A stretch of 64,000 nt of DNA from Paracoccus sp. S1E-3. GTDB lineage: Bacteria > Pseudomonadota > Alphaproteobacteria > Rhodobacterales > Rhodobacteraceae. Of the stretch, positions 6,169 through 61,455 are shown one piece after another. A model generated the notes under the pieces. The model had not been told where the DNA came from. It was given only the letters and a program-made list of their open reading frames with translations, and ran no database searches. The stretch is from the NCBI RefSeq assembly GCF_013868135.1, contig NZ_JACEMU010000016.1, forward strand, positions 124,001 through 188,000, given 5' to 3'. Numbering within the stretch: position 1 is the first letter of the stretch; each line of letters starts with the position of its first letter. A program made the position numbers and the translations under genes.

Positions 6169-7011
6169 TTACAGCGCCAGCCCGTTGCGCCCGGCAAGAT
6201 CGGTGAAGAATTGCCACGCCACCCGGCCCGAGCGCGCGCCACGCGTGGCCTGCCACTCGATCGCCTCGGCGCGCAGCTGTTCGGGGTCGATCCGCAGGTC
6301 GTAAGCGTCGCAATAGCCGCGAATCATCTGCAGGTATTCGTCCTGCGCGCAGGGATGGAAGCCCAGCCACAGCCCAAAGCGATCCGAGAGCGAGACCTTT
6401 TCCTCGACCGCCTCGCCGGGATGGATGGCGGTCGCGCGTTCATTGTCGATCATGTCACGCGGCATCAGATGCCGGCGGTTCGAAGTCGCATACAGGATCA
6501 CGTTGTCGGGCCGCCCCGCCAGGCCGCCATCCAGCACCGCCTTCAGCGACTTATACTGGGTGTCGTCATGGCTGAAGGACAGATCGTCCGCGAACAACAC
6601 GAAGCGCCTCGTTGGCGCGTTGCCCAACAGCGCCAGCAGGCGCCCGACACTGTCCAGATCCTCGCGGGCGATTTCGACCAGCACCAGCGGCAGACCCTGC
6701 GCCACCGCCTCGGCATGCACGGCCTTGACCAGCGAGGATTTCCCCATGCCGCGCGCCCCCCAGAGCAGCGCGTTATTCGCCGCATAGCCGCGCGCGAATT
6801 GCAGCGTATTGGCCAACAGCGTGTCGCGGGCGCGGTCGATGCCGACCAGTCGGGCAAGATCGACGCGGTTGACATGGGCCACCGGCTCCAGCCGGTCGGG
6901 ATCGGTGGACCAGATATAGGCCCCGGCCTCGGCGAAACTGGGCGCGGGCGCGGGCGCGGGGGCCAGACGCTCCAACGCCTCGGCGATGCGGGTCAGGGTG
7001 GCGTCAGTCAT
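6169..7011 (-). CDS. DUF815-family ATP-binding protein
   Basis: 280 aa AAA-type ATPase of the DUF815 family. Walker A is [13 protein letters not shown] (about residues 86-98) and a Walker-B-like stretch is VLFADDLSF. The family is widespread in proteobacteria with no settled function. I prefer the ATG at 7011 over the GTG one codon earlier; either overlaps the end of tatC by 8-11 nt, placing it in the tat operon by position. There is no sign of truncation. Confidence 0.85.
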
Positions 7012-7858
7012 CACCGGTGGAAAGGCCCTGGGCGCGCAACTCCTGGTCGCGCTTTTTCTCTATGCGGCGCACCAGCTGGATCGAGATCTCGTAAAGACCG
7101 TAGACCACGGTGAACAGCACGATCTGGCTGACCACGTCGGGTGGCGTCACGATGGCCGAGAGGATCAGGATCAGCACGATGGCGTATTTGCGCACGCTGC
7201 CCAGCCCCTCGGACGACACCAGCCCGGCCTTGCCCAGCAGCGTCAGTGCCACCGGCAGCTGGAAGGACAGCCCGAAGGCGAGGATGAATTTCGTCGTCAG
7301 CGACAGATATTCACTGACCGAGCCCTGAAACACGATCCCGGCCAGCGGGCTTTTCGCGGCCGCCTCGGCAGCCGCGGGATCATCGGGCAACGCCATCGGC
7401 CCCTGCTGGAAGCCAAGGAAGAAGTCATAGGCCATCGGCAGGATGACGTAATAGGCGAAGGCCGCGCCGATGAAGAACATGACGGGCGAGGCGATCAGGA
7501 AGGGCAGAAACGCCTGTTTTTCGCTGCGATACAGCCCCGGCGCCACGAAGCGCCACAGCTGATAGGCGATGACCGGGAAGGCCAGAATGAAGCCGCCGAA
7601 GAAACTGATCTGGATGGCGACGAAGAAGCCCTCCTGCAGCTTAAGCAGGATCAGCCCGCATTCCTGCCCGCGCCCTTCCAGCGCCTGACAGATCGGACGG
7701 GTCAGGAAGTTATAGACCGGATTCCACACCGCATAGCAGATGACCATCGCCACGACGAAGGCCAGAACCGACCAGATCAGCCGCGTCCGCAGCTCGGCCA
7801 GGTGTTCGATCAGCGGGGCGGAGCTGTCGTCGATATCGTTCGGGGACTTCGCGGCCAA
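7004..7858 (-). CDS. tatC: Sec-independent protein translocase TatC
   Basis: 284 aa multi-span inner-membrane receptor of the twin-arginine translocase, which binds the RR signal peptide and recruits TatA to export folded proteins. The N-terminal signature [15 protein letters not shown] (about residues 16-30) is typical of TatC, and six hydrophobic segments follow. It lies 3 nt downstream of tatB in the order tatA-tatB-tatC. A loop with [24 protein letters not shown] is slightly extended, as in other Rhodobacteraceae. Confidence 0.97.
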
Positions 7859-42970: not shown

Positions 42971-44185
42971 GTGGGGGAAGAGATGGTGGACAGACTAGGT
43001 ATGGTTACCCAAAACGCGCGTAGGCCGCAGAAGGCGCTCACGGCCATGATGGTGAAGAACGCCAGTACGCCGGGCAAGTACTTCGACGGCAACGGCCTCT
43101 ACCTTCGCGTCGAGCCGAACGGCACCAAATTCTGGGTGCAGAGGATCGTGATACTCGGCAAGCGGCGCGAGCTCGGCCTGGGCAGCGTTACGCTCGTCTC
43201 ACTGGCCGAGGCCCGCGAGAAGGCGCTGGCGAATCGCAAGATGGCCCGGGAGGGTGGCGACCCACTCGCAGCTCGGCGCGAGCAGCAGGCCGTCATGACA
43301 TTCGAGCAGGCCAGCCGACATGTACACGAATTGCACGCGCCGACGTGGCGCAATGCCAAGCATCGCCGCGACTTCATCTCGTCCCTGGAACGCTATGCCT
43401 TCCCGTTCATCGGCAAGCTGCCAGCTTCGAAGGTGGCGGCGGCCGACGTGCTGCGCGTCTTGACGCCGATCTGGACCGAAAAGCCCGAGACGGCGCGCCG
43501 CGTGCGCCAGCGTATTGGCACTGTGCTGAAATGGGCCGTGGCGCAGGGGTGGCGGCAGGACAATCCTGCCGACAGCATCACACAAGCGCTGCCGAAAGTC
43601 GGCAAGTCTCAAGTCCACCGGAAGTCGCTGCCCTACACTGACATCGCCGACTGCGTGGCGGCGATCCGGCAGTCTCGCGCCATGACGTCGACGAAGCTGG
43701 CGCTGGAATTCCTCGTTCTGACCGCAGCGCGATCTGGCGAGGTCCGGGATGCCGTATGGGACGAGATAGACCTGGACAACAGGCTTTGGGTCATTCCGGC
43801 GGCGCGCATGAAGGCCAAGCGCGCCCATCGCGTGCCGCTGTCGGCGCCAGCCCTCACCATCCTGAACGACGCCCGTGCGTTCGGCGACGGCTCCAAAGTC
43901 GTCTTCCCCGGCACCCGATACGGCGTGCCCCTGTCGGACATGACACTTTCGAAATTGGTGAAAGAGCTTGGCTTCGACGCTGACGTGCACGGCTTCCGGA
44001 CCTCCTTCCGGACATGGGTTCAGGAGCAAACTGACTATCCGCGCGAAGTGGCTGAGGCGGCGCTGGCGCACGCCGTCGGCGATGCTGTCGAGCAGGCCTA
44101 CGCGCGGTCCGATATGCTTGATCGGCGGCGGCAGATGATGGACGCATGGGCGGAGTATCTCAGTCATGGGCGTCGAGATGGCTAA
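42971..44185 (+). CDS. int: Tyrosine-type site-specific integrase (DUF4102 arm domain)
   Basis: 404 aa. The N-terminal arm-binding DUF4102-type domain (KNASTPGKYFDGNGLYLRVEPNGTK...) is followed by a core-binding SAM-like domain (about 110-200) and a catalytic domain with Arg (LTAARSGEVRDAVW, about 254), HGFR (about 340-343), LAHAVGD and the nucleophile Tyr in QAYARSD (about 376). All catalytic positions appear intact. Such integrases recombine at tRNA 3' ends, matching the 14-bp tRNA-Ala repeat just upstream. Confidence 0.93.
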   Translation: MGEEMVDRLGMVTQNARRPQKALTAMMVKNASTPGKYFDGNGLYLRVEPNGTKFWVQRIVILGKRRELGLGSVTLVSLAEAREKALANRKMAREGGDPLAARREQQAVMTFEQASRHVHELHAPTWRNAKHRRDFISSLERYAFPFIGKLPASKVAAADVLRVLTPIWTEKPETARRVRQRIGTVLKWAVAQGWRQDNPADSITQALPKVGKSQVHRKSLPYTDIADCVAAIRQSRAMTSTKLALEFLVLTAARSGEVRDAVWDEIDLDNRLWVIPAARMKAKRAHRVPLSAPALTILNDARAFGDGSKVVFPGTRYGVPLSDMTLSKLVKELGFDADVHGFRTSFRTWVQEQTDYPREVAEAALAHAVGDAVEQAYARSDMLDRRRQMMDAWAEYLSHGRRDG

Positions 44186-47252: not shown

Positions 47253-47582
47253 ATGGCCAGACGCACGACACCCCAGGCAAAGACCGACGATGCCGCCTTT
47301 CCGGTGCGCGTGCGTTTTCATGTCGGGCCGCACGGGCTCGGGCGGACCACCTCCGCGCTGCATGACTGGCTGGACGATCAGATCGGCCGAGGGAACTATG
47401 CCGTGCACGGCGGCGGCAGGGCGGTCGGCGGCGACTGTGTGTCCCTCTATTTCCGCACCCCGACGGACGCCGATGCCTGGCACGCGGCCTTTCCCCAGTT
47501 GGAGCTGGCAGACGGCACCCGGCTTCCCGGCTACTATTCCCCGTGCTTGCCGTTCGGCCGGCCGCCCGTCGAGGATGAACCC
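47253..47582 (+). CDS. Domain of unknown function continuous with SRAP frame
   Basis: 110 codons (MARRTTPQAKTDDAAFPVRV ... LPGYYSPCLPFGRPPVEDEP) that run in frame into the SRAP gene with no intervening stop. Not recognised; the segment GPHGLGRTTSALHDWLDDQI and SLYFRTPTDADAWHAAF suggest a small folded domain. It may be a fusion partner, or a separate product if translation also starts at the internal GTG at 47583. No strong Shine-Dalgarno precedes the ATG at 47253. Confidence 0.55.
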
Positions 47583-48215
47583 GTGTGTAATCTCTATAAT
47601 CAGACCCGCGCCGTCGATGCGATGCGCCAGCTCTTCGCGCCGCTGCCATTTGCGAACCGCGCAGGCAACCTGGAGCCCGGCGAGGTCTATCCCGGCAGAC
47701 TCGCGCCCATTATCCGGCATGCCGAGGGTGGGGGATTTGAGCTGGTCCGCGCCCTGTGGGGGATGCCTTCCCCACCGTCTGTGCTGAAGACCGCCCGCGA
47801 CCCAGGCGTAACCAATGTCCGCAACACGGCCTCCCCACATTGGCGACGGTGGCTAGGCCCGGCGCACCGCTGCCTTGTGCCGCTGACGTCATTTGCCGAG
47901 CCCCTGGGGGCTGGGCGCGGCAATCAGTGGTTCGCGACTACTGGCGACGCGCCGATGTTCTTTGCCGGCATCGAGGTCCGGGCGTGGTCGTCGGTGCGGA
48001 AGGTCAAGGACGGGAAAACGACCGACGACCTGTTTGCCTTCTTGACCACCACGCCGAACGAGGAGGTCGGCAGGATCCACCCAAAGGCCATGCCCGTGAT
48101 CCTGACCCGGCCCGACGAGTGGGAGCGCTGGCTGTCGGCGCCTTGGGAGATCGCTGCGAAGCTGCAGCGCCCACTGCCTGACGGGGCGCTAAGGCTCGTT
48201 GCAGAGGCCGTCTAG
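47583..48215 (+). CDS. SOS response-associated peptidase (SRAP/YedK-HMCES family)
   Basis: 210 aa from the GTG at 47583, giving M-C-N-L-Y-N, the SRAP N-terminus whose Cys2 (exposed after Met removal) crosslinks to abasic sites in single-stranded DNA. GAGGA lies 7 nt upstream, so this internal start is well supported. Other conserved positions: WGMPSP, TNVRNTASPHWRRWLG (Asn and Arg of the DNA-binding site), CLVPLTSFAEP, the Glu in AGIEVRAWSS region and the catalytic His of GRIHPKAMPVIL. The family shields abasic sites in ssDNA; here it is carried by a mobile island. Confidence 0.88.
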   Translation: MCNLYNQTRAVDAMRQLFAPLPFANRAGNLEPGEVYPGRLAPIIRHAEGGGFELVRALWGMPSPPSVLKTARDPGVTNVRNTASPHWRRWLGPAHRCLVPLTSFAEPLGAGRGNQWFATTGDAPMFFAGIEVRAWSSVRKVKDGKTTDDLFAFLTTTPNEEVGRIHPKAMPVILTRPDEWERWLSAPWEIAAKLQRPLPDGALRLVAEAV

Positions 48216-48481
48216 CTCGTGCTGCCGGCGACACTTGGGACGGCTACCTGAGATGAGAGCGGAAGGCAGCTTCCGGCCCATAGCGGACACTCGAGCAGCT
48301 CGTGCACAACGTCCGCTTCTGTGCTAACTGCCGTTTCGCAAACCTTAGCATGCGTCACCTCGTTGTGCCGCCGAGCACCAAACGATCGACGTTTTGCCTT
48401 CTTTTTCATTGCGCTGACGAATTCACCGTGCTTGGCTCGTACTGGTTTCAACACAATCAATTGAGCTAACGCTGACCCGCC

Positions 48482-49672
48482 ATGCAAACACATGATCCCG
48501 CAAGACAGATAAGCTTCATCCAACAAGCTTTATCGCAGAACCGCAAACCGGTCGGCTTCTTCATCGGTGCAGGGTGTCCGCTCTCAGTACGGGTTGAGAC
48601 GCAAGTAGACGGAAAGGCGGTTAATAACGCACTGATCCCAGACGTCAGCGGGCTCACGACAATCATCGCAGAGCAAATGACCAAAGATCCCGTGCTCGCC
48701 GACTCGTGGCTCCTTCTGACTAACGCGGTAAAAGACGACGGTCAGGACAATGAGAACATCGAGCTGCTTTTGAGCAGAATACGCCAGTTGCACGGTGTCG
48801 CAGGTAGGGGAAAGGTCAGGGATTTGTCTGCCGATGAGCTGATCACACTGGACGAGAAAATATGCAGCGTGATTTCCGATCAGGTCAACCGCGAGCTCCC
48901 GACAAGGAACACGGCGTATCACGACCTTGCCGTCTGGACCCGATCAGTGAATCGCGCCCAACCCGTCCACCTGTTCACCACGAACTACGACCTGTTGCTT
49001 GAACAGGCGATGGAGGAGAGCTCTGCGCCGTACTTCGACGGCTTCATAGGGTCCCGGCGTGCCTTCTTCGATCTTGGCGCCGTAGAGGACGAGGGACTGC
49101 TCCCCGCCCGGTGGACACGCCTCTGGAAGGTCCATGGGTCATTGAACTGGCGGCTCGACAAAGGCTCTGTGGTCAGAACTACCGACAAACTCGGGGGCTC
49201 CTACCTGATCTATCCATCGCACCTCAAGTACGATCAGAGCCGCAAGATGCCCTACCTGGCGATGCTCGATCGCCTGAAGTCTTTCCTCCTCAAGCCTTCT
49301 GCGGTGCTCTTCATCTGCGGGTACTCATTCGCCGACGACCACATCAACGACGTCATCATGAGGAGCCTCGAGACGAATGCGACGGCCCATGTCTTCGCGT
49401 TCATGCACGGCGAACTCGGCGACGACAAATATGCGAAGGCCCGCGAATGCGCCTTTGCCACCCCGAACCTGAGCATGATCGGTTTCGACAGCGCGATCGT
49501 GGGTCGTATCTCCGGCGTCTGGCGACCTGAGCCAATTGAGGGCATGGTGCTGCCGCAGAACGTTTTCGTCACCGACAACACCACCGCGTCAGTCAAACTT
49601 GGCGATTTTGCCGTCGTCGGTAGTCTGTTGCGCAGCCTTGCGGGCACTCAGGAGCAGACCGATGACGCGTAG
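48482..49672 (+). CDS. SIR2-family protein (defence NADase type)
   Basis: 396 aa. The NAD-binding SIR2 fold is indicated by FFIGAGCPLS (about 26-35), FTTNYDLLLE (about 164-173), KVHGSLNW with the catalytic His (about 217) and ICGYSFADDHINDVI (about 280). These are the features of SIR2 domains in anti-phage systems, which deplete NAD+ on infection. It overlaps the HerA-type ATPase gene by 11 nt, matching the known SIR2-HerA defence pairing. No clear Shine-Dalgarno before the ATG. Confidence 0.88.
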   Translation: MQTHDPARQISFIQQALSQNRKPVGFFIGAGCPLSVRVETQVDGKAVNNALIPDVSGLTTIIAEQMTKDPVLADSWLLLTNAVKDDGQDNENIELLLSRIRQLHGVAGRGKVRDLSADELITLDEKICSVISDQVNRELPTRNTAYHDLAVWTRSVNRAQPVHLFTTNYDLLLEQAMEESSAPYFDGFIGSRRAFFDLGAVEDEGLLPARWTRLWKVHGSLNWRLDKGSVVRTTDKLGGSYLIYPSHLKYDQSRKMPYLAMLDRLKSFLLKPSAVLFICGYSFADDHINDVIMRSLETNATAHVFAFMHGELGDDKYAKARECAFATPNLSMIGFDSAIVGRISGVWRPEPIEGMVLPQNVFVTDNTTASVKLGDFAVVGSLLRSLAGTQEQTDDA

Positions 49673-51566
49673 CGGACCTGGCGACGCCACGGTCATCGGG
49701 GCCGTTCAGGACGTGAGCGGCACGTCCGTTAGCGTCACTTTGCGTGCGGACCGGTTCTCAGGGCTGAGCTTCGTCGACGGCCAAGGTTATCGAATTGGCC
49801 AGATAGGCAGCTTCGTAAAGATTCCTGTCGGCTACGTCGACCTGTTCGGGATCGTTTCGCAAGTCGGTGCCAGCGCAGTCCCGGAAAATCAGGTCAAGGC
49901 AATGCCCAATGGACAGCGCTGGATGACGGTGCAGCTCATCGGCGAAGGATATCGTACAGGGCGTTTCCAGCGCGGCATTTCGCAGTACCCGACCATCGAC
50001 GATGAGGTGCACTTGGTCTCTGAGATGGACCTGCAGGCCATCTATGGACGTTCAGGTGCTCAGAACCACTTCGTGCGCGTTGGCCACGTCGCTGGCAGCG
50101 AGTCGATCGATGCTTTGGTCGACATCAACAAGCTCATCACGCGGCATTCGGCTATCGTCGGAACCACTGGATCGGGCAAGTCGACCACCGTGGCAGGCTT
50201 GCTCAACATACTCTCAGATGGAGCTCGCTTTCCTTCCGCCCGCATCGTCGTGCTAGATTTGCATGGCGAGTATTCACGCGCCCTAGGGGATCGGGCGGCC
50301 GTGTACAAGGTCAACCCTGACCCTCACCGCATCACCGAGAGCAGACTTTGCATCCCATTCTGGGCGTTGAGCTTTGATGAGATGCTGCGCGTCACTTTCG
50401 GCCCCCTTCCGGCGGACGGGAAAGCGCGTAACATGATCCTCGAAAAAGTCATCGAGGCGAAGGCTCAGACGCTGACGGCCAATCCCGTACAGGGCGTCAC
50501 CCCGGACACGGTTGGGGCGGACAGCCCGGTGCCGTTCTCACTGAACAAGCTCTGGCACGAGCTTTATTGCACAGAGTTCGGCACCTATTATTCGAACCAA
50601 GGGAGCCATGTGGATCGCGCGAACTGGGCATATGAGCTCGACGCAGCGGGCAACCCACTTTTAGGGGACGCTGACGCGGGCATTCCACCGAGGTTCAAGA
50701 AGGTGAAGAACGCCGCAAAAGATACGGAGAAGATCCAGTACATCCCTGACGGCCTGAACCTCAGGAGCCAACTTGAATCTCTCGGCTCCAAGCTCAGGGT
50801 CTCACGCTATGACTTCCTGCTGCGCGCAGGAGATTGGCACCCAAATCAGGACGGCGCAGTCGCACAGGATCTGGCGGCGTTGATGCTGAGCTGGCTTGGC
50901 AGCGATAAGCCAGTCACGATCCTCGACCTCTCGGGCGTACCGTCTACCATGACGAACGACATCATCGGCGTCGTGCTGCGCGTCCTGTACGATGGTCTCT
51001 TTTGGGCGCGCAACCAATCGGAGGGCGGTAGGGAGAGGCCCCTGCTGGTCGTGATGGAGGAGGCCCACACCTACCTCAACGACAACTTCGATAGTGCCGC
51101 CTCCATCGTGACCCAGCGGATCGTGAAGGAAGGCCGGAAATATGGCATTGGCGCGATGATCGTTAGCCAGCGCCCATCAGAGATCAACCCTACCATCCTG
51201 TCTCAATGTGGAACGTTCTTCGCAATGCGATTGAGCAATGCCTCCGACCGTTCTCATGTGACTGGCGCACTGTCTGATAATCTGGACGGATTGACCAACA
51301 TGCTCCCAATTCTTCGGACGGGAGAAGCCATCGTGTTGGGGGAAGCTGTGGGGCTGCCCATGAGGACGATGATCCAGGCGCCGCCGAAGGACCGCAGGCC
51401 GGACAGTCAGGACCCTATCGTGTGCGACGAACTCGCGCCCGAGGAATCCCTCACACCTGGAGGCTGGAACATCGCTCGGCCGGAAAATCCAGATTACTCG
51501 CCCTTTGTGGAGACCTGGCTCTCCCAGAATCCCGTTCTTGCCAAAAGACCCAAACAAGGAGAATAG
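49662..51566 (+). CDS. HerA-type hexameric ATPase (DUF87)
   Basis: 634 aa from the ATG at 49662 with GGAG 8 nt upstream. N-terminal HAS-barrel-like domain (GQIGSFVKIPVGYVDLFGIV), Walker A GTTGSGKST (about 167-175), VVLDLHGEYSR, Walker B LLVVMEEAH (about 460) and the arginine-finger region IVKEGRKYGIGAMIVSQRPSEI. HerA ATPases form DNA-translocating hexamers; those partnered with SIR2 or nuclease proteins act in phage defence. KTSC and nuclease genes follow within 3 nt and 4 nt. Confidence 0.9.
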   Translation: MTRSGPGDATVIGAVQDVSGTSVSVTLRADRFSGLSFVDGQGYRIGQIGSFVKIPVGYVDLFGIVSQVGASAVPENQVKAMPNGQRWMTVQLIGEGYRTGRFQRGISQYPTIDDEVHLVSEMDLQAIYGRSGAQNHFVRVGHVAGSESIDALVDINKLITRHSAIVGTTGSGKSTTVAGLLNILSDGARFPSARIVVLDLHGEYSRALGDRAAVYKVNPDPHRITESRLCIPFWALSFDEMLRVTFGPLPADGKARNMILEKVIEAKAQTLTANPVQGVTPDTVGADSPVPFSLNKLWHELYCTEFGTYYSNQGSHVDRANWAYELDAAGNPLLGDADAGIPPRFKKVKNAAKDTEKIQYIPDGLNLRSQLESLGSKLRVSRYDFLLRAGDWHPNQDGAVAQDLAALMLSWLGSDKPVTILDLSGVPSTMTNDIIGVVLRVLYDGLFWARNQSEGGRERPLLVVMEEAHTYLNDNFDSAASIVTQRIVKEGRKYGIGAMIVSQRPSEINPTILSQCGTFFAMRLSNASDRSHVTGALSDNLDGLTNMLPILRTGEAIVLGEAVGLPMRTMIQAPPKDRRPDSQDPIVCDELAPEESLTPGGWNIARPENPDYSPFVETWLSQNPVLAKRPKQGE

Positions 51567-51568
51567 AC

Positions 51569-51787
51569 ATGGCTTGGGAAGAGTTTCCTCAATTCGACTC
51601 GTCCAACATACAGGCGATCCGTTACGATCCCGACCAGATGCTGCTTGAGGTCACCTTCAAGAATGGTGGAATCTACGAGTACTTTGACGTCGATGCGCGA
51701 GTGATCGAGGAATTCAAGGCGTCCGACACCATGGGCGGCTTCCTAGCAAAGCGCATCAAGGGCCACTACCGCTACAGCAAAGTTTGA
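51569..51787 (+). CDS. KTSC-domain protein
   Basis: 72 aa consisting almost wholly of a KTSC domain: SSNIQAIRYDPDQMLLEV, then FKNGGIYEYFDVDARVIEEF and GGFLAKRIKGHYRY. The domain is small, with unknown function. AAGGAG precedes the ATG, which lies 2 nt after the HerA stop, and its own stop overlaps the next start (TTGA). The tight packing implies a stoichiometric role within the SIR2-HerA operon. Confidence 0.85.
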   Translation: MAWEEFPQFDSSNIQAIRYDPDQMLLEVTFKNGGIYEYFDVDARVIEEFKASDTMGGFLAKRIKGHYRYSKV

Positions 51788-52827
51788 GCATGGGCATAGT
51801 CAGCTTGGATCAGAAGGCAGGAAGGGTTCAAATCTCGTCCTTCGAGGTCGAGAACAAGATACTCTTCGAATTCTTCAATCGGGTTGGCACCGCCGACCGC
51901 GACGACCAGCTCCATCGGGCTCTCTACATCGGTGTGCTCGCGCTGATGGAGGATCGGCTATCTACCTTCCTGGCTCGAACCAGCAACGAACTCGGTACCG
52001 AGCTCGAGAGCCTCAAGATGATCTTCGACATGAAGAAGGAGCTCTTCTATCGCTCATCGGTAAAAGGCGTTCTCGCCGAGGAGGACATCGCCGAATTCTT
52101 GGTGGAGTTCCTCGAAAAGCAACGACTGCCAGATCGCGTTGAGCTGACCGGCGATACCGCCGGAAAGCTGCATCGCAACAAGACCGGTGACATCGTCTGT
52201 CATTTGAACGGCGTTGGCGGCAAACGCATCGCCATCGAATGTAAGTTCGACAAGGGCATTCGGCTCGGTGATATCCAGACCAAGGACGTGTTCACGAGAA
52301 AATCCGACACCGCATGGAGCCAGCTCCTCGAGGCTCAGGCCAATCGGGATGGCAGCGCCGGCATTATCGTGTTTGATCTTTCTCTGGTAGACAACTCCAT
52401 CCTGAACGCGATCCAGGACGTGCGGTTTCTTCCCGCGGTTGGATTCGTGGCCATCATCGACTCGCAAAAGGGCGACTACAAGAACCTTGCGATCGCCTAC
52501 ACGCTGGCTCGGGACCTCGCGCTGAACACCAAGGAAGTTTCACTCGATTCCGATGTGTTGAACGTGATCGTCAACCGGATCATCAAGGATCTGGTGGACA
52601 TCGCATCGATCAAGGCATTGGTCCATGCCAACATCGAAAATAGCAAGAAGATCCTCGCCCAGATCGAGAAGAGCATGATGCTGATGGAATTCAGTCAGCG
52701 CTATCTGGCGAAATTCCTATCGGACGGAACGCTGTCTAAGCAGGATCTGCTCGACTTTTATGCGGGGGAGGAACTGAAGGACCGCTTCCGTTTGATCGAG
52801 CGGGAGATAAGTGATCTGGCGCAGTAG
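51784..52827 (+). CDS. Putative PD-(D/E)XK nuclease in the SIR2-HerA operon
   Basis: 347 aa. The segment KTGDIVCHLNGVGGKRIAIECKFDK (Asp about 136, Glu-x-Lys about 152-154) fits the D-(x)n-ExK core of restriction-endonuclease-like folds, followed by a helix with QLLEAQANRDG. The first 110 residues are helical and the C-terminal 110 residues look like a coiled coil (ANIENSKKILAQIEKSMMLM). The start may be the TTG at 51784 (overlapping the KTSC stop) or the ATG at 51790. A nuclease role is inferred from the motif and operon; no named family is assigned. Confidence 0.7.
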   Translation: MSMGIVSLDQKAGRVQISSFEVENKILFEFFNRVGTADRDDQLHRALYIGVLALMEDRLSTFLARTSNELGTELESLKMIFDMKKELFYRSSVKGVLAEEDIAEFLVEFLEKQRLPDRVELTGDTAGKLHRNKTGDIVCHLNGVGGKRIAIECKFDKGIRLGDIQTKDVFTRKSDTAWSQLLEAQANRDGSAGIIVFDLSLVDNSILNAIQDVRFLPAVGFVAIIDSQKGDYKNLAIAYTLARDLALNTKEVSLDSDVLNVIVNRIIKDLVDIASIKALVHANIENSKKILAQIEKSMMLMEFSQRYLAKFLSDGTLSKQDLLDFYAGEELKDRFRLIEREISDLAQ

Positions 52828-53294
52828 ACCGGAAGCCAAGCCACAGGAGATCCCACCGACCAAGCGGTCGCAAATTGCCGTAAATCGGTGGCCTTTTCGG
52901 GTTAGACGCGCTCTTAGTCGTATTTGCAGGTTTTATCGAAAGCTTCACCAGTAGTGGAAACGCGGTCGACGCCACGAACCAGCCCTTCGAACCTATTGTC
53001 GCGACCGTCCGCTTTCCGCCCATTGTGGCCCTTCGCCGCATCTATTCCTATGTGGGAAAAGCAAGGTCTGGATTCCAGACGATGCGGTAAATTTGACAAG
53101 CATTTGATTTCGTTATATTATTATGTTGTGATGCGCTGAAGCGTCGCCATCCCCCACATTGAGGACCTCATGACCCGACACCCTGCAAAGGTGACCGCGA
53201 CATTCAGCGCAAGCTGGTCGGCCTCTTGTAGGCCGCGTCGGCCCTCTTTCCCCTTTTTCCCCTATCCCCCTCCCAAATCGAAGGAGACGTTGTG
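52828..53294. other. Intergenic region between nuclease and DUF3768 genes
   Basis: About 465 bp. The left part has a CCACCGA / TCGGTGG stem (52854-52895) with a long loop followed by CCTTTT, a possible terminator of the SIR2-HerA operon. The right part is AT-rich and holds a near-consensus promoter at 53093-53121. No convincing gene. Confidence 0.55.
53093..53121 (+). promoter_or_regulatory. Near-consensus promoter for the DUF3768 cassette
   Basis: TTGACA (53093-53098) and TATTAT (53116-53121) with a 17-nt spacer, in an AT-rich block unlike the surroundings. It leaves a leader of about 170 nt before the DUF3768 gene. Confidence 0.7.
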
Positions 53295-55192: not shown

Positions 55193-57781
55193 TCAGCCCA
55201 GATAGTCCGTTCCGGCCTCACCTTCATATAGTGCCCTGATCGATGTCGCTGCCGCGACCGCGGCGCGCGTCGAAGCCTCGGTCAGGTCCAAAGCGCGGAA
55301 CTTGTCGCCGATCTTGGCTACAGCCTCGATCCGTCGATACTGGCTTCCAAAGGCTTCCGCATAGTCGGCCAGCCCCTTGAGCTTCGGAATCGCATCGCCG
55401 AACTGGATGCCGTGCGGGTCGATGATGTCGGCGGCGACCGACCCGTCGGGCAGCCGCGCAAAGAACACGAAGTCGGGCCGGACGATCTTCGGGCTGCCGC
55501 CTTCCTCGTAGATGACGCCAAGCGAGTCCTGACTGGCGCGCGACGGATTGCGATACCAGCCGACCGTGCCTGCCCGCGCCAGCTCGGCTTTCACCACCTC
55601 GCCTTCCCAGGAGTTGAAGTCCTCGGGGAAGTTGCCGTCGTCGTCGGACAGCAGGTGCTGGGTATAGTGCGGCAGCGGCGTCTCGGTTCCATTCGCTTCG
55701 CGGAGCGTCGTCGGCTGCATCCAGGATGTCGGCCGTGCCAGATCGACCGGCATCGGCTCGGAGCTCATCTCGCGGATCTGGCGATAGACGTCCTGTCGCT
55801 CGTCGGAGAGGCTCTTGATCTCGACCCGGAACCGGCTGAGCCATTGCGCCGCCAGCTTCTCGGCCTCGGCCTCAAGCGTCTCTTTCACCTCGGGAACCAA
55901 ACCCAACGCTGCGATCATGACATGGGCGTCGATCAGGGCGCCTTCCAGGTCGTCCGGATCGCCTTCGTTCCGCGCGAGATAATCGCTGTAGGACGTCGCA
56001 AGATCGGGGCTGATCCCACGCCCGGCGCGGCGATACGCATCCTCGATCACGGCGTAGTCCGCTTCCTCGAGGAAGTCGTCGAATGACATGCCCCCGCCCT
56101 TCAGGTCGGCCTTCAGGCTCTTGCCTTCGACGGTCAGGACCGACTTTCGGGCAGTTTCGATTTCCGCCTTGAACCGCGCCCGGAGGCCGTCGAGCACCTT
56201 GTGCATCTCGGCGTGGGCTGCCTTGCCTGCATCCGCCAGCAGGCCATCCATGGCAAGTTCATGCGCCAGCGACGTCAGTCGCTTCACAGGCCGGGAATGC
56301 CGCTTCGGCAAGGTCTGAGAGGGGAGTGAGAGCAGCTTGTCCCACACGTCCTCCGGGATGGACGGGTTCGGCTTCAACTCCACCGGGTTAATCAGCACGC
56401 GACGGCCGGGCAGATCCTCGCCTCCGTCCCCGCCCGACATCAGCGCCTTGGCGATATCCGTCACCGAGGCTTCGTCGAAGAAGGGCAGCAGACAGTCGAC
56501 CGAGTTCAGCCGATCGTTGCCGGGAATCCGCCGCGCCAGTGGCGTGCGCACCATCCGGCCCAGAAGCTGGGTGATATGCGTCCTGTCCCGTGCGGGCCGG
56601 AACGAGACCATGACCTCGGCGCGCGGGCAGTCCCAGCCGGTGCTGATCGCATCCTTTGCGATCAGTACCCTGATCCAGGTCGATTCCTGCACACGTTCCG
56701 GCGAGATGTAGGGCACGGTATGGGCCCCGAAGGTCTGGGCGGTATGCTCCCCGAACACATGCGCCACCGCATCTTCGGGCAGGTCCGGCCATTGCGCATA
56801 GATGGTGTCGAGCGCCGCGCCGATATCGTTGTGATCGGGTGCGTTCGGCACCTGCAGCACCATCAGCGGCAGAACGGTGTCGGCATCGTCCTGCTGCTGG
56901 CCATAGGCTTCCCAGGCGGAGGAAATCTCCTTCAGCTTGTCTGTGCCGCGACGGACGAGCACGGTATCGAACGCGCCCGCATCCGTGGGGACATCGAGAA
57001 TGATCGTGTCCTTCAGCAGGCCGGACGCCTGAACCTTGGCGGAATCCACCACCACATTGGGCAGGGTCGCGCGGCCCTGCATGTCGGACACCGCGGCGTT
57101 GAAACGCTCGACCGTGGCCGAGATGCCCCAGACGACGGGGATGCCGGGTACCGGCCCCGAGCCGTTGATCAGCCGCTTGACGATGGTGGTCTTCTCGCCC
57201 GCGCCGGTCGCCGCGCGCATCCCGCGATGCGCCTCGTCCAGCACCAGATAGAGCGTCAGCGCCGGGTCGTCGATCGTGTTCTGGATCGTGTCCCAGATGG
57301 TGAAGGACCGGCTGTCGGGCATCAGCCGGATCTGGCCGTCCTTCTCGATCCCCTCGTCGTCGGGATCGTGCCCGCGCACCAGCAGGCTCGATTTGCCGAG
57401 CTTCTGGGTGTTCAGGAAATAGATCTTCCCCGGCTCCAGCACCTCGCGCTGAAAGGTGTTCTGCACCACCACAAGGTCCGAAAGCGTCAGCCGGTCCGAC
57501 GCTTCGAGCAGTCGAAACCGCGACTGTTCGTTCAGAGAGGGGTCGTCGCTGAACCAGATCACCACAGCGCCGGGATCGGGTTCGATGTCATAATTGTCGT
57601 CGCCGTGAAACAGCGCCTCGAACACCGCCGCTGCCATGACGGTCTTGCCGGCTCCCGTGGTGGCCGTCAGCGAGAACGCATGTTTATCACCGTCTTCGCG
57701 CCAGCGTCGCGATGCCTTCTTGATGTTCACCAGCACGTTCTCGACGGCTTCTTCCTGATAATCCTTCAGCGTGAACTTCAT
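55193..57781 (-). CDS. res: Type III restriction enzyme, Res (helicase/nuclease) subunit
   Basis: 862 aa. SF2 helicase core: LKDYQEEAVENVL, Walker A TATTGAGKT (about 39-47), DEAH box LVLDEAHRGM (about 182), motif III GISAT and motif VI QLLGRMVRTP. The C-terminal region has a VAKIGDKFRALDL-like tail and an upstream segment (PDFVFFARLPDGSVAADIIDP) that could be the PD-(D/E)XK nuclease core. It requires Mod for DNA binding and cuts after ATP-dependent communication between two sites. It starts 3 nt after mod. Confidence 0.9.
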   Translation of the reverse strand: MKFTLKDYQEEAVENVLVNIKKASRRWREDGDKHAFSLTATTGAGKTVMAAAVFEALFHGDDNYDIEPDPGAVVIWFSDDPSLNEQSRFRLLEASDRLTLSDLVVVQNTFQREVLEPGKIYFLNTQKLGKSSLLVRGHDPDDEGIEKDGQIRLMPDSRSFTIWDTIQNTIDDPALTLYLVLDEAHRGMRAATGAGEKTTIVKRLINGSGPVPGIPVVWGISATVERFNAAVSDMQGRATLPNVVVDSAKVQASGLLKDTIILDVPTDAGAFDTVLVRRGTDKLKEISSAWEAYGQQQDDADTVLPLMVLQVPNAPDHNDIGAALDTIYAQWPDLPEDAVAHVFGEHTAQTFGAHTVPYISPERVQESTWIRVLIAKDAISTGWDCPRAEVMVSFRPARDRTHITQLLGRMVRTPLARRIPGNDRLNSVDCLLPFFDEASVTDIAKALMSGGDGGEDLPGRRVLINPVELKPNPSIPEDVWDKLLSLPSQTLPKRHSRPVKRLTSLAHELAMDGLLADAGKAAHAEMHKVLDGLRARFKAEIETARKSVLTVEGKSLKADLKGGGMSFDDFLEEADYAVIEDAYRRAGRGISPDLATSYSDYLARNEGDPDDLEGALIDAHVMIAALGLVPEVKETLEAEAEKLAAQWLSRFRVEIKSLSDERQDVYRQIREMSSEPMPVDLARPTSWMQPTTLREANGTETPLPHYTQHLLSDDDGNFPEDFNSWEGEVVKAELARAGTVGWYRNPSRASQDSLGVIYEEGGSPKIVRPDFVFFARLPDGSVAADIIDPHGIQFGDAIPKLKGLADYAEAFGSQYRRIEAVAKIGDKFRALDLTEASTRAAVAAATSIRALYEGEAGTDYLG

Positions 57782-57784
57782 GTC

Positions 57785-59914
57785 TCATCGGCCCATCGAA
57801 AAGCGAAAATTGGAGAGGTAGGACTCATAAAGTCGTACCGGTTGGATGCTGTCGGGTAGCGCACGCGCCACCGCCTGAAACCGGCGGTCGTCATCCGTCA
57901 CGATGTAGGCGATGCGCAGGGTCGGTTGCGCGGAGGCCGCATCACAAAATGCCGCAGAGCGGTCCAGGTCCACGAGCAGGCCGTAGGTATCTGCAACGTC
58001 CCATCCAGCGGTCGGAACATGGTCGATGCGACGGCCTTCCGATCCGGCGCGCATCCACAACAGTGGGCTGATTCGTTTGAATGCAAGGTTGTGGCTGACG
58101 GCGACAGGAGCTTCGTAGGTTAGGGTGAAGAACTCGGCGTTTTCCTCGAATCCCTCAGCCATCGGGAATTCATCAGTGAACTTGTAGTCCCCCTTGATAT
58201 CCTCTCCGTCCGGCGTCTTGCCTGTGATGGCGGCAGCGATCCGGGGTTTCGTAATATAGTCGCAAATGCCCCACTTCTCCCAATCTGGATCACCAGGACG
58301 CAAGCCAGCCTTACGCAATGCTGCTTGCTCTTCGGCGGCCACCTCGTTGTTCGTGACCGAGATGCACTGTCGACTCCCGCCGTCCTGACGGTTGAGCCGC
58401 ATAACGGCATGGGCGGTGGTGCCTGATCCGGAGAAGAAGTCGAGGATGATGGCGTGAGGATTGCTTACGACAAAGAAACGTAGCACATCTTCGACGGCAT
58501 AAAGGCTTTTAGGAAAAGGAAACTTTCGCCCCGGCATCAGGAGTTTCTGTAAGTTTGTTCCTCCTTGCTCCGCATTGTGTGAAGCAATTCTCCACTGAGT
58601 GCCAGGAACGAACGTCGGCTGATAAGCCGCATCATCGACGATAATCGAGTGGTCTGGCCGCCTTCCCGTGATAGGAAACAAGCCAGCTTCAACCTTCTTC
58701 TGCTCTCCTCGAAACAAATAAGTGATAGAGGTAGAACTACCGCGCCATCGGCCGAGTTTAGCATAGCCTTTTTCGATAAGGCTGCGTAGGCCGTTCGCGC
58801 TGTTTTGCCATCTGCCTTCAGTGCCGTCTGACCTAATCGGCCAAACAGCTACACAGCCCTCGGGCGGCTCAATATCTTGCCAGTTTTCTCCGAAGAAGGC
58901 CTCTCCAACAGAATGAAATACAGGGCTGCCTTCGTTATTCTTGATGAACACCGGGTAGAATTGATTGGGGCTATCTGTGCGGAGGGGGTCAGAACCAGAA
59001 CGAAGCGCCTCAGCCCACCGAAGCTTGCCAGCTCTTTTGTCTTGGACAATCTTCCATTCATCTCCCAGTGGAATGGCTTCAGGAGCGGCACTGCCGATCC
59101 AGACAAAAAATAGATACTCGTCGGTCCTGCCAAATGCGGCACCTCGAGAAGCGCCTTTAGGATTAATGACACTTGATACCATTTGAAGCCGAGCATCTGG
59201 AAAAGTCTGCTCCAAAAGCAGGCCTAGCCTGAGGTACTCCTTTTCATCAATAGTAACGATCAGCGTAGACGCATTTGGATTCAGCAGTTCCCGAGCAACA
59301 AGAAGCCGCCGCTCCATCATCGCCAGCCATTTAGAGTGGCGATAGAGGTCATCCCCTTCGACGTAATCGTTGTTGTACTTCCAGTCCCGCGCCCCGGTAT
59401 TATAGGGCGGGTCGATATAGATGGCGTCGATCTTGCCCCGATGGGTGTAAGTCAGCGCCTCCAGCACATGGAAGTTCTCGCCGTTGATCACCGTGTGGAA
59501 CGGCTTGTCACCGCCGCGCTCCACCCGTCCGGTGCTGACCAACCCAGGGTAGATGTAATCGCGGAACTCCGCCACCACGACCAGATCGGCAACCGTGACC
59601 TCGGCCGTCTCGGCGGCATCCGTGTCGATCAGCGCCAGATGCGCCACCTTTGCCGCACCCCTTCCAGCCATTCGCGCCACGCGCCACAGCCGCTGATCGC
59701 CACGCTCGGTGCTACCCCGCGGAGACAGAATGCGCACCTTGTCGCCCCGCCGCACGGGACGGCTGGGCAGCTCCACGCTCTCGGGTCGGTGCCGTTCGAA
59801 GTTCAGCCCGAAGGCGCGGCGCGACGCCAGCGCCTTGAACTCCCGCTCGAGCTCGTCCCCCAGCGCGCTGTCCCTGGCCTTGGCGCGCGCGATCAGATCC
59901 GTCAGACGCGACAT
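57785..59914 (-). CDS. mod: Type III DNA methyltransferase, Mod subunit
   Basis: 709 aa. DPPY motif in IYIDPPYNTGARDWKYNNDYV (about 167) comes before the SAM motif FFSGSGTTAHAV (about 492), the beta-class order usual in Mod subunits, which make N6-methyladenine. The region between them (about 200-480) is the target-recognition domain; its DNA is clearly AT-richer than the rest of the gene. Mod both methylates and provides sequence specificity to Res. First gene of the mod-res operon. Confidence 0.92.
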   Translation of the reverse strand: MSRLTDLIARAKARDSALGDELEREFKALASRRAFGLNFERHRPESVELPSRPVRRGDKVRILSPRGSTERGDQRLWRVARMAGRGAAKVAHLALIDTDAAETAEVTVADLVVVAEFRDYIYPGLVSTGRVERGGDKPFHTVINGENFHVLEALTYTHRGKIDAIYIDPPYNTGARDWKYNNDYVEGDDLYRHSKWLAMMERRLLVARELLNPNASTLIVTIDEKEYLRLGLLLEQTFPDARLQMVSSVINPKGASRGAAFGRTDEYLFFVWIGSAAPEAIPLGDEWKIVQDKRAGKLRWAEALRSGSDPLRTDSPNQFYPVFIKNNEGSPVFHSVGEAFFGENWQDIEPPEGCVAVWPIRSDGTEGRWQNSANGLRSLIEKGYAKLGRWRGSSTSITYLFRGEQKKVEAGLFPITGRRPDHSIIVDDAAYQPTFVPGTQWRIASHNAEQGGTNLQKLLMPGRKFPFPKSLYAVEDVLRFFVVSNPHAIILDFFSGSGTTAHAVMRLNRQDGGSRQCISVTNNEVAAEEQAALRKAGLRPGDPDWEKWGICDYITKPRIAAAITGKTPDGEDIKGDYKFTDEFPMAEGFEENAEFFTLTYEAPVAVSHNLAFKRISPLLWMRAGSEGRRIDHVPTAGWDVADTYGLLVDLDRSAAFCDAASAQPTLRIAYIVTDDDRRFQAVARALPDSIQPVRLYESYLSNFRFSMGR

Positions 59915-60236: not shown

Positions 60237-61001
60237 TCAGAAGAGCGCCGACTGTCCCGTGTCGTCCACCCGCAACACGCCAAGCAACTGCCATGTCTGG
60301 CGACGACTGGCCATGTTGCCGACACAGAACAGCATGCCCTTCCGGGGGTATGTTTCGTTGAACGTCTTGCTCATCCAGTCGAGCGTCGCCTGGTCGGTTC
60401 CCTCCCGTTGGCGGCCGTTGAAGAACATCGCATGGGCCTCCCAATCGCCATTCGCGTAGTCGTGTGGCCCCGTGGCATCCTCAAACTTGAAGCGAAACTC
60501 GTATGGGCTGGGTTCGAGCGCCTTCAGCTTCTCGTCGAAGAAGGAGTCCTGGCGCGCGGCCTCTGCATAGGTGCGCCGCTCCGCCTCAATCTCGTCCGGC
60601 TTCTTGGTCTTGTAAAAGAAGCGGGTGTTCCGGGGGCGGATCAGCGCGAGGGATTTCCCCGCGGCTTCGGCCTCCTTCACGGAAGCGGAGACAAGCGGGT
60701 TGAGAAATGAGGCGCGTTCCTTCTCGGGCATATGGCCGTCCCGGCGGAGCGAGTTTTCCCAGACGTGGCAGCTTTCGGCGCGGTTGTCGCTGGTCGGGCG
60801 CCGATAGGTGAACTTTACCCAGTCCCAGCGCTTGAACGCCGCATCTGCTCCGAGATGCCGGAAGCGGATCGGAAAAAGCCTCTTGAACTCGCCATGGGCG
60901 GTCACCCCGGCGCAGCAGACCGTTTCCCCATGGTTGGCGCTACGCTGCGGTAAGGCCTTCACCAGGATGGAAACGCGGGAGCTTTGATGCGTTTCGGACA
61001 T
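60237..61001 (-). CDS. Unknown protein overlapping the DUF488 gene
   Basis: 254 aa, not recognised. Soluble, mixed alpha/beta. Features: WVKFTYRRPTSDNRAESCHVW, LIRPRNTRFFYKTKKP, FEDATGPHDYANGDWEAHAMFF and MLFCVGNMASRRQTW near the end. The paired basic and aromatic residues suggest nucleic-acid or nucleotide contact, but no catalytic motif is evident. Its ATG lies inside the DUF488 gene, overlapping its last 62 nt, which implies obligatory co-expression. Confidence 0.7.
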   Translation of the reverse strand: MSETHQSSRVSILVKALPQRSANHGETVCCAGVTAHGEFKRLFPIRFRHLGADAAFKRWDWVKFTYRRPTSDNRAESCHVWENSLRRDGHMPEKERASFLNPLVSASVKEAEAAGKSLALIRPRNTRFFYKTKKPDEIEAERRTYAEAARQDSFFDEKLKALEPSPYEFRFKFEDATGPHDYANGDWEAHAMFFNGRQREGTDQATLDWMSKTFNETYPRKGMLFCVGNMASRRQTWQLLGVLRVDDTGQSALF

Positions 61002-61455
61002 AGCGATCAGGGTCGTCGGCGAACAGGTTGCAAATCTCGAAGCCCGTCTCTTCGATCACTTCCTGCGCGACGATGGTCCTGTGGCAGGTTTCCGGATCGC
61101 GCTCGAAACAGAGCAGGCATGTCGGCGCATCCTGAACGAAATCGACCAGTTCCCGCAGCGATTCCTGCGCGGCACCGGTTTCGATATGCGCGCCGTAGAT
61201 GGAACGAAACAGATCGAAATCCCCGGCCCGGGCAGCCTCCCGGCCAGGCTTGGGATCGCCGAGGGCGATGAAATGCGAATACTCGATGCCTTCTTCCGCA
61301 AGCCGCGCAGCGAGCTTGGTCTTGGAAAACCCGGCCTTGCGCGAGACAGCAACGGCACGAACATCGGCCAGTCTTTCGATGCCGGCCGCCTTCAGGGTCC
61401 GGACGAACCGATCAATATCGGTCCCTTCATAGCCAACGGTGAATACTACGCTCAT
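60940..61455 (-). CDS. DUF488 domain protein
   Basis: 171 aa. DUF488 hallmarks: MSVVFTVGYEGTDIDRFVRTLKAAGIERLADVRAVAVSRKAGFSK at the N-terminus, YSHFIALGDPKP in the middle and CLLCFERDPETCHRTIVAQEV near the C-terminus (Cys-x2-Cys and C-H). The family has a rhodanese-like or nucleotide-binding fold and is often found beside restriction or other DNA-processing genes; biochemical role unknown. It overlaps the next gene by 62 nt. Confidence 0.85.
   Translation of the reverse strand: MSVVFTVGYEGTDIDRFVRTLKAAGIERLADVRAVAVSRKAGFSKTKLAARLAEEGIEYSHFIALGDPKPGREAARAGDFDLFRSIYGAHIETGAAQESLRELVDFVQDAPTCLLCFERDPETCHRTIVAQEVIEETGFEICNLFADDPDRYVRNASKLPRFHPGEGLTAA

Follow-up and report, generated by a model that had tools for sequence, protein, structure and literature searches.

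The 64,000-nucleotide (nt) stretch of Paracoccus sp. S1E-3 analysed here (contig NZ_JACEMU010000016.1, positions 124,001-188,000; hereafter the window) contains four open reading frames (ORFs) arranged head to tail on the + strand at 48482-52827. ORF and library scans placed all four where an initial annotation of the DNA had put them, on the same strand. They encode a SIR2-family protein, a HerA-type ring ATPase, a small KTSC protein and a probable nuclease. As judged by sequence comparison, this type of operon normally comprises three genes, for an enzyme that destroys nicotinamide adenine dinucleotide (NAD+), a DNA motor and a small subunit of that motor; the fourth gene is extra. The features of the locus are as follows, with E-values given after database names.

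48482-49672, + strand: SIR2-family protein, 396 amino acids (Pfam SIR2_2 3.6e-21, PADLOC SIR2 2.3e-131, PDB 8w9l 1.8e-95)
49662-51566, + strand: HerA-type ring ATPase, 634 amino acids from the ATG at 49662 (Pfam DUF87 8.2e-33, PADLOC HerA 9e-158, PDB 8wiv 2.4e-198)
51569-51787, + strand: KTSC protein, 72 amino acids (Pfam KTSC 6.6e-21)
51790-52827, + strand: fourth gene, probable PD-(D/E)XK nuclease with helical ends, 345 amino acids from the ATG (motif, predicted core)
52189-52323, + strand: predicted catalytic stretch of the fourth gene, with the codons of D134 (52189-52191), E150 (52237-52239), K152 (52243-52245) and Q178 (52321-52323)
48278-53021, no strand: transfer block common to the window and plasmid pPZ02 of Paracoccus zhejiangensis (4,744 base pairs (bp), 3 mismatches, no gaps, unrelated flanks)

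The SIR2 and HerA genes overlap by 11 nt, and the KTSC gene begins 2 nt past HerA. The fourth gene had been described as a 347-amino-acid frame overlapping the KTSC stop, which holds only if the alternative start TTG at 51784 is used; the ATG at 51790 gives 345 amino acids and a 2-nt gap after KTSC. The ATG is the start annotated by RefSeq in the near-identical pPZ02 copy. Promoter and terminator scans of the locus gave no signal above the level of shuffled sequences.

The SIR2 gene lies directly upstream of the HerA-type ATPase gene, which is the arrangement of SIR2-HerA systems, and both the residues of a NAD+-degrading enzyme (NADase) and a Walker motif are present. The SIR2 residues N168 and H218 do not vary among 18 SIR2 proteins from the subtype described below; they are the counterparts of the NADase pair, which in the Vibrio cholerae protein is N168 and H227 according to PMC11559045. 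The Walker A motif of HerA occupies residues 167-175 (GTTGSGKST at 167), with K173 invariant in 20 HerA proteins. The roles of the SIR2 NADase residues and of the HerA Walker motif are in part general knowledge of these families.

The closest solved HerA is that of 8wiv and six further PDB entries, which match the window HerA at 2.4e-198 and which we take to be from Paenibacillus. A profile of ten neighbour KTSC proteins identified residues 630-696 of 8wiv HerA as a C-terminal KTSC domain (2.1e-26). The same profile found no other HerA chain in the PDB up to E 1, although weakly matching solved HerA chains exist. Both the 8wiv-type HerA and a SIR2-like chain, matched by the window SIR2 at 1.8e-95, occur in PDB entries 8wld, 8woc, 8wod and 8wof, and on the viral contig L054 a single frame encodes HerA with a fused KTSC domain, as in 8wiv. 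With a KTSC gene adjoining HerA at 2 nt and the profile match to 8wiv, the window operon falls in the KTSC-bearing subtype. The KTSC protein had no match among the PADLOC models. By homology, the first three genes are a member of the solved SIR2-HerA subtype, with HerA in two pieces.

How general this arrangement is was assessed with HerA loci collected from GTDB contigs, other genomes, plasmids and viral contigs, mainly by HerA queries and partly by fourth-gene queries. Among the plasmids 621 records had a HerA-type match, and 17 of the 60 listed were chosen by hand for different organisms; in the viral-contig scan 80 of 93 relatives were kept, giving 79 loci. The 126 HerA loci were scored by profiles and merged to 103 distinct ones at 95% identity. 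The boundary of the subtype is a gap in the HerA-profile score, from 395 to 542 bits, and the line was drawn after the scores had been seen. So defined, the subtype set spans Alpha-, Beta- and Gammaproteobacteria, one Bacteroidota genome and one haloarchaeal plasmid.

SIR2 lies upstream of HerA in 40/40 distinct subtype loci, and in 38 of them HerA is followed by KTSC, either as a gene or as a fused domain; these loci are related, so that co-occurrence counts are not independent events, and ten of the counted KTSC proteins also went into the KTSC profile. The two exceptions are L058, which lies at a contig end, and L037, with a HerA truncated to 414 amino acids; KTSC is present in L051-L053, which are closely related to L037. 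Outside the subtype there are 63 loci, and the 61 with at least 250 nt downstream were counted; none of these 61 HerA-type loci, 27 of them with SIR2, has KTSC on the same strand. Two further cases were left out of the counts: a weak KTSC-like match in L060 (E 0.39, 33 codons) and, in L080, a KTSC gene lying on the opposite strand. Because 38/40 subtype loci have KTSC and it is fused to HerA in 8wiv and L054, KTSC is assigned to the core of this HerA subtype, as a part that is equivalent by homology to the C-terminal domain of 8wiv HerA. The initial annotation had treated KTSC as an addition to a two-gene core, which the 38/40 count and the fusion in the closest solved structure contradict. 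On the same grounds the roles of optional adaptor or free inhibitor were set aside; the latter is unlikely in view of the core status of KTSC and its fusion in 8wiv.

The new part of the operon is the fourth gene, a lineage-specific nuclease-like addition; the three other genes are the known subtype. Searches of Pfam to E 1 and of NCBIfam and PHROGs to E 0.1 assigned the fourth protein to no family. Its sole PADLOC match, CARF9 (E 0.056), was taken as chance. The residues D134, E150-x-K152 and Q178 do not vary among six full proteins or among ten aligned cores, one of them the core of the distant relative L020 (42% core identity, 37% overall), and a D, an E-x-K and a following Q-helix make up the PD-(D/E)XK motif. 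In the AlphaFold2 model of the core (residues 66-250), strands are placed at core residues 70-73 and 81-87 and a helix at 110-121; the mean predicted local distance difference test score (pLDDT) is 73.1 and the predicted template modelling score (pTM) 0.71. The full-length model has a mean pLDDT of 66.0 and a pTM of 0.50, and its C-terminal part is predicted to consist of a long helix (254-312) and two shorter helices.

Structural comparison points in the same direction as the motif. Foldseek on its own gave nothing significant. With the core model, its best E-value was 8.6e-3 (FokI), and Ecl18kI had a probability of 0.77; with the full model, the values were 3.3e-2 for FokI and a probability of 0.82 for EcoT38I. 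A VIA comparison of the core model gave Z scores of 9.2 for McrBC chain M, 8.9 for Can2 and for BsaWI, 8.7 for VC1899, 8.6 for Cdn1 and 8.2 for Bax1, with PaqCI (7.7) and Ras-type folds (near 6.5) in lower rows. Nuclease rows also led a separate VIA comparison, with Z up to 9.4. Best Z values of 7 to 8 are common for models without relatives, so this lead is modest. The McrC, Can2/Cdn1, Bax1 and type II restriction enzyme matches are PD-(D/E)XK nucleases; two of the first 23 VIA rows, 2czr and 9wuf, are not known to be nucleases. Identity to the matched nuclease structures is 9-16%, which indicates a shared fold and not family membership. Since the motif and the predicted fold agree, the fourth protein is very probably a PD-(D/E)XK nuclease. 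The nuclease core suspected earlier is supported by an invariant motif and by a predicted core that matches such nucleases best, with modest scores. That the predicted nuclease is catalytically active is less likely than its identity as a nuclease.

The fourth gene is present in 9/40 distinct subtype loci and in 0/61 loci outside the subtype. The carriers are the window together with pPZ02, Mesorhizobium sophorae, a Nitrobacter metagenome-assembled genome (MAG), Zavarzinia marina, a Pseudomonadota MAG, the genomes G856, G1126 and G738, and an IMG/VR contig. Nine close relatives of the fourth protein (at least 58% identity) are all encoded directly after KTSC. In 10/10 carrier loci (pPZ02 included) the fourth gene starts within -4 to +3 nt of the KTSC stop, a placement beyond chance. 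A conserved four-gene form, as had been proposed, does exist, with constant order and spacing, within one clade; a four-gene form throughout SIR2-HerA was rejected on the same counts. The concern that homologous loci might lack the last two genes proved half right: subtype loci keep KTSC, but 31/40 do without the fourth gene, and SIR2-HerA loci outside the subtype are without both. The other concern, that the fourth gene might occur equally often in unrelated contexts, is confined to one solitary relative, L020, against the nine close relatives that all follow KTSC.

A HerA tree of 43 rows (39 subtype and 4 outgroup) was used to place the carriers; it left out 7 of the 46 listed subtype loci (L016, L051, L053, L055, L058, L037 and L047). 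The nine carriers lie within one ten-row clade (support 97/96), in which the Sphingomonas plasmid L015 is the sole non-carrier. A single gain followed by loss in L015 is preferred because the place and spacing of the fourth gene are the same throughout. Should L015 split off beneath the other eight, a history with two gains, one of them in the L004 line, would be equally parsimonious.

Among 385 genomes of the class the fourth gene was found in three (the source genome, G042 and, as the solitary relative, G213), and among 398 genomes of the phylum in three (the source genome, G042 and G738), the latter sample not being independent because G738 came to light through the fourth gene, after which HerA was used to search its order. 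A search for more remote relatives in 131 genomes of the order of G213 returned only G213 itself. A tblastn search of 72,556 plasmid records, with either the fourth-gene query A1 or the L020 protein, returned one match, the same pPZ02 record, and a search for fourth-gene relatives in 50,697 phage records returned none. In the viral-contig scan A1 found one distinct locus and the L020 protein found none. The flanks of seven four-gene loci contain no fifth conserved gene; common to them are only integrase-like ORFs, plus the block edges shared by the window and pPZ02.

Where present, the fourth gene is well kept and evolves about as slowly as HerA. When the window is compared with L001 or L002, the nonsynonymous substitution rate (dN) of the fourth gene is 0.09-0.10 and that of HerA 0.11-0.12, with 0.20-0.22 for SIR2 and 0.25-0.26 for KTSC; in the comparison with L003 the fourth gene and HerA have the same dN, 0.19. 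Synonymous rates (dS) were saturated for several pairs and were not used. Over nine loci the distances of HerA and of the fourth protein correlate with r 0.981, a value reached by 0/2000 permutations. The other five gene pairs of the operon also correlate (r 0.78-0.95).

The comparison with pPZ02 bears on joint transfer. Similarity between the plasmid and the window ends abruptly on both sides of the shared block, which starts 204 bp 5' of the SIR2 ATG, ends 194 bp past the last stop and has a guanine-plus-cytosine content of 57% versus 65% for the window. The whole operon has been transferred, as a single block, between this Paracoccus plasmid and the window. This block and the parallel HerA distances speak for joint inheritance and transfer of the four genes. 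Near the block edges there is a short inverted pair, AGCGGAC on the left and GTCCGCT on the right, which may be chance because the two motifs recur in the window, 3 and 8 times, respectively.

The function of the fourth protein has to be considered in the light of what is known of HerA and its partners. PMC11559045 describes the V. cholerae Nezha system as a SIR2 protein that with HerA depletes NAD+ on infection, and cites nuclease activity for an E. coli pair. DUF4297-HerA cleaves double-stranded DNA in phage defence (PMC11291478), and archaeal HerA-NurA degrades double-stranded DNA (PMC12977600). HerA rings can work with nucleases, since DUF4297-HerA and HerA-NurA do.

In view of the above, the chances seem evenly balanced that the operon is a SIR2-HerA anti-phage system of the KTSC-bearing subtype which has acquired a second effector, a deoxyribonuclease (DNase). 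HerA would be the ring ATPase partnered with SIR2. The KTSC domain, often a separate small protein in this subtype, would join HerA, an assembly suggested by homology to the fused form. Upon infection the complex would activate SIR2 and NAD+ would be destroyed, as in the studied homologues. The fourth protein would most likely dock on the HerA-KTSC ring and cut DNA handled by the motor. Whether one HerA-KTSC translocase serves the SIR2 NADase and the PD-(D/E)XK DNase at once is a question on which we lean neither way. A four-protein complex, NAD+ loss and DNA cleavage by this operon are inferences.

Several observations weigh against a dual-effector system. The core does not depend on the fourth gene, since 31/40 subtype loci do without it, and L015 lacks it even though its HerA is 79% identical. 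The 37% identical relative in L020 (8647-9690, - strand) stands alone between integrase-like ORFs, and no SIR2, HerA or KTSC gene was seen near it. Divergence of the fourth protein across the nine loci is 1.25-fold that of HerA. The AlphaFold2 models of the fourth protein are of middling confidence, and Foldseek gave no match at E 0.001 with either the full or the core model. Finally, a sirtuin and an endoDNase have been proposed to be mutually exclusive (PMC9503650).

The solitary L020 relative and the 31 loci without the gene would also suit a nuclease that is an independent defence gene, acting alone on foreign DNA and sharing only transcription and transfer with SIR2-HerA-KTSC. This we regard as doubtful: an independent gene does not account for the position of all nine close relatives directly after KTSC, for distances that track those of HerA, or for conservation at a HerA-like rate.

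It is unlikely, too, that the nuclease acts upstream, by generating DNA ends or fragments for HerA to sense and so gating SIR2, as a sensor or trigger and not a killing effector. The HerA motor handles DNA, and the translational spacing with KTSC and the same gene anatomy would fit such a role, but 30 distinct loci that have SIR2, HerA and KTSC, and also the truncated L037, are without the nuclease, and since they lack it, their SIR2 is presumably triggered otherwise. A non-catalytic adaptor with a nuclease fold, altering assembly or the range of phages sensed, would agree with the large helical N- and C-terminal parts that flank the core and with the restriction of the gene to one clade, yet is very improbable given that D134, E150, K152 and Q178 are invariant in 10/10 cores, even in the 42% identical one.

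The window operon can be compared with several known systems. It resembles the SIR2-HerA (Nezha) subtype of 8wiv, 8wld, 8woc, 8wod and 8wof in SIR2 (1.8e-95), HerA (2.4e-198) and the presence of a KTSC domain, and differs from it in that KTSC has a gene of its own and that there is an additional, nuclease-like fourth gene. In SIR2-HerA pairs outside the subtype (PDB 8j4u, 8su9) SIR2 likewise adjoins a HerA-type ATPase, but the sequences are distant (HerA 5.7e-29, SIR2 1.5e-15) and KTSC is absent both from the PDB chains (up to E 1) and from the 61 loci. DUF4297-HerA also combines a nuclease with a HerA ring in phage defence (PMC11291478); there the nuclease replaces SIR2, whereas the window operon keeps SIR2 and no Pfam model matches its fourth protein up to E 1. 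The window operon was considered as a DUF4297-HerA system and did not qualify as one; a remote kinship of the nucleases is possible. The neighbourhood of PMC9503650 has HerA, KTSC and a nuclease together and is said to be without a sirtuin, whereas the window has a sirtuin and a putative endoDNase; the nucleases are compared by description only. McrC, Can2/Cdn1, Bax1 and type II restriction enzymes share the predicted fold of the fourth-protein core, but the fourth protein is only 9-16% identical to them.

If true, a dual-effector system would contradict the proposal that HerA partners with either a sirtuin or an endoDNase but not both. The analysis corrects the parts list of one SIR2-HerA subtype, with KTSC as the standing third component, and points to an inherited and transferable four-gene version whose single motor may be common to NAD+ destruction and DNA cleavage. 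Point mutants should separate these two outputs, and natural operons with the nuclease (window, L001) and without it (L015) can be compared. Among the titles and abstract openings listed for SIR2-HerA, KTSC and Nezha, none concerned a SIR2-HerA-KTSC-nuclease operon, which does not prove that no description exists.

The window also carries other defence genes, in agreement with the initial annotation; PADLOC detects a type III restriction-modification pair and a PDC-M19A/B pair. The former (55193-59914, - strand) consists of a methyltransferase gene (57785-59914, - strand; E 0) and a restriction helicase-like gene (55193-57781, - strand; 3.3e-08). The latter are two overlapping genes at 60237-61455 (- strand), a candidate pair matching PDC-M19B (7.9e-33) and PDC-M19A (1.5e-29); the PDC-M19A match protein carries a DUF488 domain. 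Just 5' of the transfer block is a SRAP-family gene (47253-48215, + strand), and a phage-type integrase (42971-44185, + strand) lies farther upstream.

Among 34 loci with KTSC but without the fourth gene, no common alternative fourth gene was found. ORFs that start near KTSC in such loci encode 196 amino acids in L032, 246 in L027 and L041 and 951 in L059, and L127 has an open 374-amino-acid frame. The L032 ORF, on a Pseudoalteromonas plasmid (5256-5810, + strand), is a SLATT-domain gene 10 nt after KTSC, perhaps another add-on to the core. The haloarchaeal plasmid L036 has an ADP-ribosylglycohydrolase, annotated in two pieces, after KTSC (6359-7336, + strand). On the Klebsiella plasmid L038 (1-10665, + strand), a SIR2-HerA pair outside the subtype lies among DUF499, DUF1156 and SNF2 genes.

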